Source: Caldifarciminota bacterium (lineage in GTDB: Bacteria; Hydrothermota; Hydrothermia; LBFQ01). Taken from it: DNA of 64,000 nt. Below the pieces are notes generated by a model, which saw only the letters and a list, made by a program, of their open reading frames with translations, was not told where the DNA came from and did not search any database. This document shows positions 29,107 through 34,546 of this stretch, piece by piece; position 1 is the stretch's first letter; the number at the start of each line of letters is the position of its first letter. The stretch lies in NCBI GenBank assembly GCA_027003075.1, contig JALWYV010000005.1:1-64000 (forward strand). Direction: 5' to 3'. The position numbers and the translations under genes were made by a program.

Positions 29107-30051
29107 ATGCCCAGAGTACTGGTAGCAGGTAACGCGGGGTTCATCGGCACCCACCTTACGGGGTATTTGCTTGATCTGGGATGGGATGTGGTGGGGGTTG
29201 ACAATTTCTCTACCGGGAAACCAGAAAACGTGGAAAGGTACAGAAAACGTCCTAACTTTACCTTTTACGAAATGGACATAACTCAAGAAGTACCTGAGGG
29301 GGGTTACGATTACATCGTCAACCTCGCATCTCCGGCCAGTCCCAAGAAGTACCTGTCCCTCCCTGTAGATACGATGCTGGTCAACTCCATAGGTGTGAAG
29401 AACCTTCTTGATCTCGCAAAGGATACCGGAGCCACCTTCCTCCTCGCTTCCACGTCCGAAGTCTACGGCGATCCCCTTGTACATCCCCAGCCGGAGGACT
29501 ACTGGGGGAACGTCAATCCCGTAGGTCCGAGAAGCGTTTACGATGAGGGGAAGAGGTTCGCCGAGGCCATAACCATGGCCTACTACCGGTACGACAGGGT
29601 CCCCGTAAGGATAGCGAGGATATTCAACACCTACGGCCCCTTTATGGACGTAGCGGACGGCCGGATAATTCCCAACTTCGCATATCAGGCCCTTACGGGG
29701 CAGCCCCTGACCATATACGGGGATGGAAGCCAGACCCGTAGTTTCTGCTACGTTTCGGACATGGTGGAGGGACTTTTCAGACTGCTCACCTACGAAGGAT
29801 TGGACGGCGAGGTGGTGAATCTGGGTAATCCGGACGAGAGGACTGTCCTGGACGTGGCCAGACTTGTCGTTAAGATATACGGTGTACCGGAGAACTTCAC
29901 CTTTCTCCCCCTTCCTCAGGACGACCCGAAGAGGAGAAAACCCGATATAACGAAGGCGAAGAGGCTCCTGAAGTGGGAGCCGAAGGTTCCCTTTGAAGAG
30001 GGTCTACGCAGGACACTTGAGTGGTATAAGGAGGTGATAAATGTGGGATAG
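29107..30051 (+). CDS. NAD-dependent epimerase/UDP-glucuronate decarboxylase-like
   Basis: VAGNAGFIGTHLTGYLL, NLASPASPKKYLSLPVDTM, STSEVYGDPLVHPQPEDYWGNVNPVGPRSVYDEGKR. Confidence 0.9.
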   Translation: MPRVLVAGNAGFIGTHLTGYLLDLGWDVVGVDNFSTGKPENVERYRKRPNFTFYEMDITQEVPEGGYDYIVNLASPASPKKYLSLPVDTMLVNSIGVKNLLDLAKDTGATFLLASTSEVYGDPLVHPQPEDYWGNVNPVGPRSVYDEGKRFAEAITMAYYRYDRVPVRIARIFNTYGPFMDVADGRIIPNFAYQALTGQPLTIYGDGSQTRSFCYVSDMVEGLFRLLTYEGLDGEVVNLGNPDERTVLDVARLVVKIYGVPENFTFLPLPQDDPKRRKPDITKAKRLLKWEPKVPFEEGLRRTLEWYKEVINVG

Positions 30052-30697
30052 CATCCCTTCCAGCATGCAGCCTTTCGTCTACGCCCTCCTTTTCGTCTTT
30101 GGCTTTCTCCTTGGAAGTATCCCGTGGGCCTACATAGTGGCGAAGGTGGTCGGGGGGATAGACATCCGCAAGGTAGGGAGCGGAAACGTGGGGGCAACGA
30201 ACGTCGCCCGTACCTTGGGCCTCAAGTGGGGTACCCTCGTCTTCGTTCTGGACGCCCTGAAGGGTTTCATACCCGTGTTCATCGTAAGGCTCCTTATACC
30301 CTACAACATAGAGCTGGCTATGGTTACGGCTCTGGGTCCGATACTCGGTCACATGTTCACGCCCTTTCTCGGCTTCAAGGGTGGCAAGGGGGTAGCGACA
30401 GCGGTCGGTGCCTTCGCCGCTCTAACTCCTCTGGGTGTCCTGATCGGCTTTATCGTCTGGATAACCGTCGTACTTACAACGGGCTGGGTGTCCCTCGGTT
30501 CCCTCCTTGGATCCCTGACCGTGTTCCTGTGGGTTCTCCTCTTTGACCCCAACAGGCACTCCCTGCCTTTCGTGGTCGTATCCGGTATAGTTGTCCTCTT
30601 TATCTGGATCAGACACTACGGAAACATAAAACGTCTCCTTTCGGGCAAAGAGCCGAAGATATGGGATAAGAAGAGGAAGCAACAGGAGAGAGAATGA
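30041..30697 (+). CDS. plsY: Glycerol-3-phosphate acyltransferase PlsY
   Basis: GSIPWAYIVAKVVGGIDIRKVGSGNVGATNVARTLG; FKGGKGVATAVGAF. Confidence 0.95.
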   Translation: MWDSIPSSMQPFVYALLFVFGFLLGSIPWAYIVAKVVGGIDIRKVGSGNVGATNVARTLGLKWGTLVFVLDALKGFIPVFIVRLLIPYNIELAMVTALGPILGHMFTPFLGFKGGKGVATAVGAFAALTPLGVLIGFIVWITVVLTTGWVSLGSLLGSLTVFLWVLLFDPNRHSLPFVVVSGIVVLFIWIRHYGNIKRLLSGKEPKIWDKKRKQQERE

Positions 30698-31056: not shown

Positions 31057-31896
31057 TCAGGACAGCACCATCGCCACCATACTCAGAAACATGTAAGAGG
31101 AGGCCAGTTTAAACAGGATAAAGGCTTTCCGGTCGTCGGGTTTGCGTGCGTTAAGAAGGGAAATTATGAAAAAGAACAGGAAGGCGGACGTGAGAATGGC
31201 CATTGTGAGAATACTGGCGTTCAGGAAGAGGGCAGTGATCATCATGGCCGCGTAGGATAGTACCACGAACACAGGAACGAGGTACATGGAGAACCGTACA
31301 CCGTGGGTATTAGGGAGAACGGGAACACCGGCCCGGGCGTAATCTTCCCTGTACTTCACCTCAAAGGTTATGTTGTGGATGGGGACCCATAACAGTACGA
31401 TAAGGGCGAGGAGGAGACCGAGGGTGTCAACCCTCCCCGTAGCGAGAACCCTGCCTCCCAGTATAGGCATGGCTCCGGCTATACCGCCCCAGAGTATGGA
31501 CCAGGGGGTACGCCTTTTCGTCCACAGGGTGTAAACGACCACGTTGAAGAGGAAGCCGACCAGAGCAACTACGCCGTAGAGAGGACTGAGGGCAAAGGAC
31601 CAGATCAGGCCGAGAGCCGAGGTCAGAGCAGCCACTGCGAGAACTTCCCTCCTCGGAACCCTGCCCGAAGGTATGGGCCTGTTCTTCGTCCTCTCCATGA
31701 CGGAGTCTATGTCGTGATCGTACCACATGTTGAATAGCGTTGCCCCTCCTATCGTAAGGAGCATCGTACCTAAAAGGTGCAGGATCTTAATCGGATCCGG
31801 GTTCCCGGCCGTAAGGTATCCCACCAGCCCCGTGAGCACGAGCATAAGGGTCTGGTAGGGCTTTATCATCACGAGGTAGTCCCTCAAGCGTCTCAT
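31057..31896 (-). CDS. ctaB: Protohaem IX farnesyltransferase (haem O synthase)
   Basis: NMWYDHDIDSVMERTKNRPIPSGRV; YTLWTKRRTPWSILWGGIAGAMPILGG; start at MRRLRDYLVMIKP. Confidence 0.95.
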   Translation of the reverse strand: MRRLRDYLVMIKPYQTLMLVLTGLVGYLTAGNPDPIKILHLLGTMLLTIGGATLFNMWYDHDIDSVMERTKNRPIPSGRVPRREVLAVAALTSALGLIWSFALSPLYGVVALVGFLFNVVVYTLWTKRRTPWSILWGGIAGAMPILGGRVLATGRVDTLGLLLALIVLLWVPIHNITFEVKYREDYARAGVPVLPNTHGVRFSMYLVPVFVVLSYAAMMITALFLNASILTMAILTSAFLFFFIISLLNARKPDDRKAFILFKLASSYMFLSMVAMVLS

Positions 31897-32711
31897 CTTA
31901 TAGACCTCCAGAAGAGCAGTATGAGGGTAAGTATGGCAAGAGTGTAGTGGGTGGTTACCATGGTGGGACTGAGCATGCTGTAGGCGGATAGAGCACCAAA
32001 GATACCGGTAAGAAGCACAAGGAGAGATATAAAAACGAACCACTTTTTATTATCCGCACGGAAGATAAAGTAGAGTGATAGGCCGAATATAACGTACCCC
32101 ATGAGCCTGTGAATAACCTGAAGCATAACATCTCCCGTCCAGGGCTGCCCGAGGCAAAGAAAGATATCCTGACCACACGCAAATCCAGCCTGAGCCTTAC
32201 GTACGGTAGTGCCGAGGAGGATCTGAAGGAATACAAGAGCGAAGAGGATGGTACTCAAACGCCCGTCGCGATCCCCCGCCCAGACGAGTCTATCCGGGGG
32301 GTTATCCGCCCATTTCAACATGAGGGTGGCGGTAAGTATGGTGAGAAGGGCAAACAGGGCGTGAGATATTGAAACCCAGAAGGGCATCTTCAGAATTACC
32401 GTAAGGCCCCCTATGAGGATCTGGGCGACGAGGAATATAGCCAGCCATATACCCGCCTCGATCAAAAAGGTTCCCCTATAACGCCTGACAGCGAGAACGG
32501 TCGCCCCGGCGACGAATACGGAGGTTAAAGCCGCAAGCACCCTGTGGATATACTCAAGCATCGCGAAGTTCTGTTCTGGAGGTAAAAGGCTACCGTAACA
32601 AAGAGGCCAGTCCGGACATCCAAGGCAGGCCCCGAGAGCAGCGGTAGCGCTCCCGAAGACCATAAGGACAACCATACTTATTAGCGTACCCCAGAGTAAA
32701 AGTTTCCTCAT
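31893..32711 (-). CDS. ctaA: Haem A synthase (COX15/CtaA)
   Basis: ACLGCPDWPLCYGSLLPP, EYIHRVLAALTSVFV, VIHRLMGYVIFG. Confidence 0.92.
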   Translation of the reverse strand: MRKLLLWGTLISMVVLMVFGSATAALGACLGCPDWPLCYGSLLPPEQNFAMLEYIHRVLAALTSVFVAGATVLAVRRYRGTFLIEAGIWLAIFLVAQILIGGLTVILKMPFWVSISHALFALLTILTATLMLKWADNPPDRLVWAGDRDGRLSTILFALVFLQILLGTTVRKAQAGFACGQDIFLCLGQPWTGDVMLQVIHRLMGYVIFGLSLYFIFRADNKKWFVFISLLVLLTGIFGALSAYSMLSPTMVTTHYTLAILTLILLFWRSIR

Positions 32712-32885: not shown

Positions 32886-33599
32886 TTGAGAGTGGTTGTT
32901 GTAGTTCCCACGTACAACGAGGCCGACAACATAGCCGATCTCATACGGGAGTTGAGATCCCTTCCCGTATCACCCGACGTTCTTGTGGTGGACGACAATT
33001 CCCCGGACGGTACATGGAAGATAGTTGAGGAGATAAGACAGAAGGACCCGACCGTTCACCTCCTGAAACGCCCCGGTAAGATGGGGCTCGGATCGGCCTA
33101 CGTGGAAGGGTTTAAATGGACGCTTGATAGAGGTTACGACGTGATAGTACAGATGGACGCAGACTTTTCCCACAATCCGAGGGACGTTCAGAAGTTGGTT
33201 GAGGCTCTCAAAGACTGTGACGTGGTCATAGGTTCGCGGTACTGTAACGGTGTGAGCGTTGTTAACTGGCCTATCAGCCGCCTTCTCCTCTCCTACCTTG
33301 CAAACCAGTACGCTCGCCTCCTGACCGGTGTGAAGATAAACGATCTGACCGGAGGTTTCAAGGCGTTTAAACGGGAGGCTCTACAGGCCCTTGATCTGAA
33401 CAGGATCAAGTCCGATGGGTACGCCTTTCAGATAGAGGTGAACTTCTACCTCTGGATGAAGAGGTTCAAGATGTGCGAGATACCCATAATATTCGTTGAG
33501 AGGAGGGCCGGAAAGTCCAAACTCAACCGCTCCATAATATGGGAGGCCTTCTGGCTGGTTATCAGGCTCTTCCTGAAGAGGATAACCGGGAGAGTATGA
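32886..33599 (+). CDS. Polyprenol-phosphate mannosyl/glucosyltransferase (Dpm1-like GT2)
   Basis: VVVPTYNEADNIADLIRELR, VVDDNSPDGTWKIVEE, MDADFSHNPRDV, DLTGGFKAF; TTG start 7 nt after TATAAT. Confidence 0.92.
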   Translation: MRVVVVVPTYNEADNIADLIRELRSLPVSPDVLVVDDNSPDGTWKIVEEIRQKDPTVHLLKRPGKMGLGSAYVEGFKWTLDRGYDVIVQMDADFSHNPRDVQKLVEALKDCDVVIGSRYCNGVSVVNWPISRLLLSYLANQYARLLTGVKINDLTGGFKAFKREALQALDLNRIKSDGYAFQIEVNFYLWMKRFKMCEIPIIFVERRAGKSKLNRSIIWEAFWLVIRLFLKRITGRV

Positions 33600-34546
33600 G
33601 GTTCTATCGACTGATGCGTGTGGGGTACGGTGTACTGGAGGAGGCCCTTCTCACCCTCCGCAGGGAGTTTCCCGGATGCAGGTTCCTGATCTTTACAGGG
33701 GACGAGTACTCCCAGAGATATGGCCTCAGGGTTGCCGAGGTCGTGCGGGGCGATGCGATAATAGGGGACAGAGAACCGGAGGAAAGGGGGTACGGGTTGG
33801 TCATAGGTGTAGGTGGGGGGAGTGTTATAGACAGGGCAAAGCTCTGGGCCTACGAGAGGGGACTGCCGTTTATATCCGTACCTACCCTGCCCTCAAGCGA
33901 CGGCATCGCATCTCCGGTGAGTGTTCTGAACGGGAAGAGTCGTTTCCTTACCCTTCCGTACGGTATAATAGTGGATCTGGAGATAATGGAGTCTGCCCCC
34001 CGATGGAGCATTCTGGCTGGCACGGGAGATCTACTCTCCAACCTATCCGCCTCCGTGGACTGGGACCGTTTTAAAGATAGATCCACCGAGCCTTACTCTC
34101 ACGAGGCTTCCGTTATGGCAAGATCCGGTGCCCTATCCCTCCTCAACTCCTCCCCGGGCGACAACCTTGATCTACTGATATGGGGACTTATCCTGAGCGG
34201 TCTGGCTATGAACGTGGCAGGCTCTTCCCGTCCTGCGAGCGGACCAGAGCATAAGGTGAGTCATGCCCTTGACTTCATAGGGTACGGAGAGAAGCACGGC
34301 ATACAGGTGGGGATATTTACCCCCCTGTTCCTCAAACTTAACGGATATACGGGTTGGGAAAGGGTCAGGGAGTTCCTTACGGGGGTGGGCTTGCCGGATC
34401 ACGTTACCCTTACGGAGGAGGAGGCCGTTAAGGTATTCAGCAGGGCTTCGGAGACCAGACCCCACAGGTACACGGTAATAGAAAGTCTCGGATGGGAGAG
34501 GGTACTTGATGAGGCCGTTAATCTGGGCTTCGTACGTATAGTTTAA
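33596..34546 (+). CDS. egsA: sn-Glycerol-1-phosphate dehydrogenase-like (EgsA/AraM family)
   Basis: GVGGGSVIDRAK, VPTLPSSDGIASPVSVL, GTGDLLSNLSASVDWDRFKD, SSRPASGPEHKVSHALD, KHGIQVGIFT; ATGA overlap with upstream GT2. Confidence 0.88.
   Translation: MRFYRLMRVGYGVLEEALLTLRREFPGCRFLIFTGDEYSQRYGLRVAEVVRGDAIIGDREPEERGYGLVIGVGGGSVIDRAKLWAYERGLPFISVPTLPSSDGIASPVSVLNGKSRFLTLPYGIIVDLEIMESAPRWSILAGTGDLLSNLSASVDWDRFKDRSTEPYSHEASVMARSGALSLLNSSPGDNLDLLIWGLILSGLAMNVAGSSRPASGPEHKVSHALDFIGYGEKHGIQVGIFTPLFLKLNGYTGWERVREFLTGVGLPDHVTLTEEEAVKVFSRASETRPHRYTVIESLGWERVLDEAVNLGFVRIV

Follow-up and report, generated by a model that had tools for sequence, protein, structure and literature searches.

The G1PDH gene and its surroundings

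The window, the whole stretch of 64,000 nucleotides analysed here, is part of a MAG of WOR-3, a poorly known candidate phylum. The assembly comprises 62 contigs with a total of 2.11 Mb and has a completeness of 93%. It encodes a protein of the glycerol-1-phosphate dehydrogenase (G1PDH) family, and the following genes are relevant for its interpretation:

30041..30697, forward strand: PlsY, acyl-phosphate:glycerol-phosphate acyltransferase of the bacterial ester-lipid route (TIGR00023 192 bits, cut-off 137)
31057..31905, reverse strand: UbiA-family heme O synthase, CtaB (TIGR01473 226 bits, cut-off 210)
32886..33599, forward strand: Dpm1-like family-2 glycosyltransferase (GT2) of the polyprenyl-phosphate type, 237 amino acids (PF00535 114 bits; P. 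furiosus DPMS 5mlz 129 bits)
33596..34546, forward strand: G1PDH (EgsA/AraM family), 316 amino acids
41278..42195, forward strand: LpxK, tetraacyldisaccharide 4'-kinase of lipid A (TIGR00682 122 bits, cut-off 92)

The ATG at position 33596 is the start codon of the G1PDH gene and belongs to an ATGA (33596-33599) that overlaps the stop codon of the GT2 gene upstream, as an earlier reading made from the sequence alone (the sequence-only reading) had claimed. All G1PDH/AraM motifs named there are present in the open reading frame, and the plsY and lpxK genes that it placed near G1PDH are both found, with scores above their cut-offs. Since LpxK belongs to lipid A, the organism should have an outer membrane. 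The UbiA-family gene at 31057-31905 was considered as a DGGGP synthase and ruled out, since it encodes heme O synthase. The start of plsY is overlapped by a gene for a dTDP-glucose-dehydratase-like epimerase (29107-30051). A G1PDH with 91% identity and the same gene layout is present in a GenBank MAG labelled "candidate division WOR-3 bacterium".

The window protein is a divergent member of the G1PDH family

The window protein scored 190 bits with the NCBIfam model for G1PDH (NF002022), versus 49 bits with the model for glycerol dehydrogenase. The equivalog cut-off of NF002022 is 413 bits; such a cut-off is the threshold for transferring a name between close orthologues and is no boundary of the family. 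The score of 190 bits below it thus marks the window protein as divergent. Among solved structures, the G1PDHs of M. jannaschii and Pyrobaculum matched with 133-134 bits and glycerol dehydrogenases proper with at most 46 bits, a margin of about 88 bits. The best PDB match, 3ce9, was deposited as a glycerol dehydrogenase and groups with the G1PDHs in our tree. An AlphaFold2 model of the window protein computed from three input sequences had a mean pLDDT of 45, too low to be of use.

For the comparison of residues, 57 WOR-3 proteins of the family were aligned with archaeal G1PDH, AraM and glycerol dehydrogenases. D145, H219 and H234, which we take from family knowledge to be the metal ligands, are invariant in all 57. 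R212 (in SRPASG), H223 (SHALD) and R291 (RPxRY) are kept in the window protein and common to the solved archaeal G1PDHs, and they are missing from all three aligned glycerol dehydrogenases. The window protein thus shares both the metal ligands and the substrate-site residues with the archaeal enzymes (M. jannaschii 4rgq, Pyrobaculum 5fb3), and in its N-terminal part it can be aligned to the short form of the enzyme known from Pyrobaculum.

A maximum-likelihood tree (70 sequences, 344 columns) placed AraM, the archaeal and Streptomyces sequences and all WOR-3 sequences in one G1PDH group separate from the glycerol dehydrogenases. AraM-type sequences form a distinct, well-supported branch (98.6/99). 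The three archaeal G1PDHs form one branch (41.6/96) inside a mostly bacterial group, and the sequences of the window's own WOR-3 family, f1, are not within it: they sit on a long branch beside family f17, in a tree whose backbone is not settled. The branch of archaea and AraM is supported by 95.8/87; sequences of another family, f12, join it weakly (94.8/56).

The long f1 branch in the poorly settled tree, together with the score below the equivalog cut-off, could be taken to mean that the window protein is another iron- or zinc-dependent dehydrogenase, such as a glycerol or alcohol dehydrogenase. Against this stand the conserved R212, H223 and R291, the margin in the structure search and the separation of the two groups in the tree, and we regard this identity as very improbable. 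The grouping with other iron-dependent dehydrogenases, which the sequence-only reading had named as evidence against G1PDH, was not observed. By its sequence the protein is of the archaeal-type enzyme family, and in this sense the designation "archaeal-type" made there stands; it does not extend to an archaeal origin of the sequence. A recent transfer from archaea was considered and dropped, as the poorly settled tree gives it no support.

The genome encodes a G1P and a G3P route

The genes that would be required downstream of G1PDH are present elsewhere in the assembly. A GGGP synthase (GGGPS) is encoded at G000:C1:14928-15560 (PF01884 116 bits, cut-off 23.9; TIGR01769 165 bits, cut-off 161.6). 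Its best match among solved structures is the Flavobacterium GGGPS 4jej (163 bits). All residues tested, which were taken from the list in PMC9385802, are kept, namely the Asp that binds Mg, the catalytic Tyr/Tyr/Glu and the Thr that group II has instead of the group-I Asn. The enzyme is assigned to group II and not to the heptaprenyl PcrB type. Among nine UbiA proteins, the one on contig C55 is the best match to archaeal DGGGPS models (PRK12884 141 bits, PRK12882 113 bits, both under the equivalog cut-offs), and it contains motif 1, D-x3-D (NDLFDLPED), and motif 2, Y-x4-K (YNYYLK). A geranylgeranyl reductase (GGR) with the GGR catalytic domain PF22578 is encoded on contig C22 (TIGR02032 227 bits, cut-off 158.8). 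These genes are scattered across contigs, and the pathway loci have a similar GC content of 52-56%.

The bacterial route is represented by GpsA (C57), PlsX (C59) and the PlsY of the window; plsY is thus separated from gpsA, unlike in most WOR-3 families read. Both gene sets are present, and therefore a G1P and a G3P route are encoded side by side. A search for glycerol kinase in this genome found none. CarS (CDP-archaeol synthase) had no match in the window genome, and the weak matches elsewhere in WOR-3 (at most 28 bits) were taken for CdsA-type proteins. Since no CarS was found, CDP activation would need a bacterial CdsA, which is able to replace CarS (PMC7852524). Two 3.7-kb loci of the same assembly (on C18 and C46) encode identical UbiA (phosphoribosyltransferase-type) and transketolase-like proteins, which reflects either a duplicated stretch or redundancy of the MAG assembly.

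In the pathway that we propose, G1PDH would reduce dihydroxyacetone phosphate to sn-glycerol-1-phosphate (G1P), GGGPS would couple G1P to geranylgeranyl diphosphate, the DGGGPS-like UbiA protein would attach the second chain and GGR would saturate the chains. The product would be an archaeal-like G1P isoprenoid ether lipid, alongside ordinary G3P ester lipids made via GpsA, PlsX and PlsY. We consider it probable that the window gene encodes a working G1PDH feeding such an ether lipid beside the ester lipids: the genes are present, the reactions are assigned by homology and conserved residues, and the lipid is a prediction. The sequence-only reading had raised a mixed-stereochemistry lipid and had suggested a search for GGGPS, DGGGPS and UbiA homologues. 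All of these were found, so that a prenyl-glycerol-phosphate pathway appears to be encoded, and with GGR and the GpsA/PlsX/PlsY genes the potential for mixed lipids is well supported at the gene level; a membrane of mixed stereochemistry is what this gene set predicts.

Distribution of the pathway in WOR-3

Among 147 WOR-3 genomes, G1PDH was found in 72, GGGPS in 91 and a DGGGPS-like UbiA protein (E < 1e-12) in 90; 60 of the 147 encode all three. GGGPS and DGGGPS occur together in 83 genomes and are both missing from 49 (Fisher p = 7e-23), and for G1PDH and GGGPS the numbers are 63 and 47 (p = 3e-10); both p values ignore shared ancestry and are thus optimistic. In 26 genomes from ten families (f3, f5, f8, f9, f10, f11, f12, f14, f28, f29), GGR and GGGPS are no more than about 1.5 kb apart. 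Binning errors were examined as a source of the mixed gene set and rejected: four single-contig genomes (G075, G086, G087, G088) each encode G1PDH, GGGPS, DGGGPS, GGR, GpsA and PlsY, so the mixed state is not a binning artefact. Family f10 has GGGPS and GGR without G1PDH, and in one of its genomes (G053, 99% complete, 4 contigs) PlsX was not found, while PlsY and GpsA are present.

The neighbours of G1PDH differ between families

The GT2 gene is adjacent to G1PDH in all seven f1 loci read, and in at least six of them the position of the junction is identical (in the remaining locus, L016, the tblastn match to GT2 stops a few residues before the junction). Identities of G1PDH are 66-91% for most of the genus. 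The pair is thus not a product of chance. Within the genus, the coupled GT2 is more conserved than G1PDH (80-96% versus 63-91% identity, L011-L016). This GT2 gene was not found beside G1PDH in any other family read, and for this reason the coupling does not define the role of G1PDH; it was discarded as the key to its function. The suggestion of the sequence-only reading that the Dpm1 coupling points to a glycoconjugate linker was not supported, since the coupling is restricted to f1 and other WOR-3 families have different G1PDH neighbours.

An NTP transferase (Pfam NTP_transf_3) is encoded directly upstream of G1PDH in f4 (L079), f9 (L080), f18 (L086-L088) and f19 (L029), and in an f18 genome a CDP-alcohol phosphotransferase (PF01066) adjoins G1PDH. 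Streptomyces fungicidicus (L136) has cytidylyltransferase, dehydrogenase, CDP-alcohol transferase and glycosyltransferase genes in one run. Our literature search found no description of an NTP transferase - dehydrogenase - CDP-alcohol cassette. Families f18 and f19 encode G1PDH and no GGGPS, and since their G1PDH lies beside an NTP transferase, another use of G1P in the phylum is indicated. From these neighbourhoods we infer a second use of G1PDH in cassettes of the f18/f19 type, which may provide a CDP-activated alcohol made from G1P. If this were the general role, G1PDH would supply CDP-activated glycerol or another alcohol for a glycoconjugate or a polar head group and not lipid backbones. 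The neighbours in f4, f9, f18 and f19, the Streptomyces run and the missing GGGPS in f18 and f19 agree with such a role; however, no cassette of this kind adjoins G1PDH in f1 or f12, and GGGPS is present in every member of both families, which makes it quite improbable as the function of the window gene. In family f30 (L093, L094), G1PDH is followed by a Gfo/Idh/MocA oxidoreductase and then by LpxB and a DUF374-type acyltransferase (the last two named by sequence reading), a neighbourhood that by the same reading would place G1PDH in a lipid A context.

The second ether bond is less certain in f1

Motif 3 of the DGGGPS candidates differs between families. All six f1 candidates read (L006 1405-2196, L166-L170) have Ser or Thr at the position of the first Asp, with the rest conserved (VKSLQDMEGD in f1, KDIEDIDGD elsewhere), and the complete motif is present in f12 and in the remaining families read. 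In MjDGGGPS, replacement of the residue at this position by Ala strongly lowered activity (PMC9385802; we read the residue as D180, the motif numbering there being inconsistent), so that by this reading the position is essential in that enzyme. Since the first Asp of motif 3 is replaced in f1, formation of the second ether bond is uncertain there, and by sequence it is less certain in f1 than in f12; the f1 product may be a mono-ether instead of a di-ether.

In its strongest form, this would mean that G1P in f1 is taken no further than the prenyl mono-ether (GGGP), which would then be dephosphorylated or decorated like the heptaprenylglycerol of Bacillus, with the UbiA paralogue doing another job and the lipid serving as a minor modifier or linker and not as bulk lipid. 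The replaced Asp in six of six candidates otherwise conserved and the coupling of a Dpm1-like transferase to G1PDH would be in line with this, and Bacillales produce a C35 mono-ether on G1P (PMC9179154). On the other hand, all eight f1 genomes encode the UbiA orthologue together with GGGPS, the co-occurrence of GGGPS and DGGGPS in the phylum is nearly perfect, and the GGGPS is of group II, with the residues of a GGGPS, and not PcrB-like. We therefore consider a halt at the mono-ether unlikely and retain the archaeal-like ether lipid as the predicted product.

Family f12 appears to have lost gpsA

Family f12 comprises five genomes (G001-G005) with completeness values of 99, 99, 96, 99 and 91%. 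All five encode G1PDH, GGGPS, DGGGPS, GGR, PlsX and PlsY, and GpsA is missing from all five: its C-terminal domain is absent and its N-terminal NAD domain is matched with at most 28 bits, compared to 133-142 bits in gpsA-bearing genomes. Glycerol kinase (GlpK) was searched for in the five genomes and not found. Of the other 88 high-quality genomes (completeness of 90% or more, contamination of 5% or less), just two lack GpsA. An absence from five of five genomes of one family, compared with 2 of 88 elsewhere, is not explained by sampling.

Gene order indicates how gpsA would have been lost. In f18, f19 and f22 the order is der-plsY-gpsA-merR, and in f22 der is preceded by a radical-SAM gene. 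The f12 order is radical SAM-der-plsY-merR in four genomes and der-plsY-merR in G002 (L096-L105); plsY and merR overlap or abut, and gpsA is gone from between them. A gpsA that is merely divergent or unassembled was rejected, since none of the five genomes has either domain as GpsA, and at the former gpsA position plsY directly adjoins or overlaps merR. A binning error was rejected as well, because one 548-kb contig of G002 contains G1PDH, DGGGPS, PlsX and a PlsY. The f12 PlsY proteins retain the GSGN[VI]GATN and GGKG motifs. The family also has the gene run alaS-GGR-GGGPS-ispE-spoVG-prs-rplY-pth, in which the isoprenoid-precursor gene ispE accompanies GGR and GGGPS (gene names by sequence reading; GGR and GGGPS confirmed by domain search).

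The PlsY proteins of E. coli and B. subtilis use G1P and G3P about equally well, and both are also accepted by PlsC (PMC13400652; Rieche et al. 2026). The simplest reading of the f12 gene set is that G1P alone would be made and that both ether and ester lipids would be built on it. In full, G1PDH would have replaced GpsA, and sn-G1P, as the sole de novo product, would feed ether lipids via GGGPS, DGGGPS and GGR and ester lipids via a stereo-permissive PlsX/PlsY route, so that all phospholipids would have the archaeal backbone stereochemistry. We offer this scenario tentatively and give it somewhat less than an even chance. The main alternative is that f12 obtains G3P by salvage or import.

Discussion

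Archaea build their membranes from isoprenoid ethers on G1P and bacteria from fatty acid esters on its mirror image G3P, and this lipid divide is a classic open question about how early cells evolved. GGGPS and DGGGPS are already known from bacteria; in WOR-3, G1PDH, GGGPS, DGGGPS and GGR occur together in many genomes of one phylum. WOR-3 is listed in a table of Coleman et al.; apart from this table, our search, which covered open-access papers, retrieved none that deals with G1PDH in WOR-3.

The nearest known case is that of the Cloacimonetes in the FCB group, which like WOR-3 have homologues of GGGPS and DGGGPS together with GGR, keep the G3P-fatty-acid route and lack CarS. Their GGGPS and DGGGPS yielded an archaeol phospholipid in E. 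coli, but the four MAGs with these genes contain no G1PDH (PMC7852524; Villanueva et al. 2020), whereas WOR-3 has one. Furthermore, GGGPS adjoins DGGGPS in Cloacimonetes and GGR in many WOR-3 families. Bacillus subtilis, with AraM and PcrB, likewise combines a bacterial G1PDH-family protein with an enzyme of the GGGPS/PcrB family; WOR-3 differs in that its G1PDHs are separate from the AraM-type branch, its GGGPS belongs to group II and it also encodes a DGGGPS-like protein and GGR. The promiscuity of PlsY and PlsC was described for purified E. coli and B. subtilis enzymes (PMC13400652). WOR-3, including f12, likewise relies on the PlsX/PlsY route, and G1PDH seems to be the sole de novo source of glycerol phosphate in f12.

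The WOR-3 gene set fills the gap reported for Cloacimonetes, where GGGPS and DGGGPS occur without G1PDH. Since the best-studied bacteria with GGGPS and DGGGPS lack G1PDH, the stereochemistry of their lipids is open; WOR-3, with G1PDH, GGGPS, DGGGPS and GGR together and in some cases on a single contig, is a more promising candidate in nature for a membrane of mixed type and could be used to test whether a bacterium can build a membrane on the archaeal backbone. The loss of gpsA in f12 is a more surprising result than the potential for mixed lipids. If it is real, sn-G1P would be the only glycerol phosphate that these bacteria make themselves, and a family that has lost gpsA and kept PlsX and PlsY makes it testable whether a bacterial membrane can be built on G1P alone.
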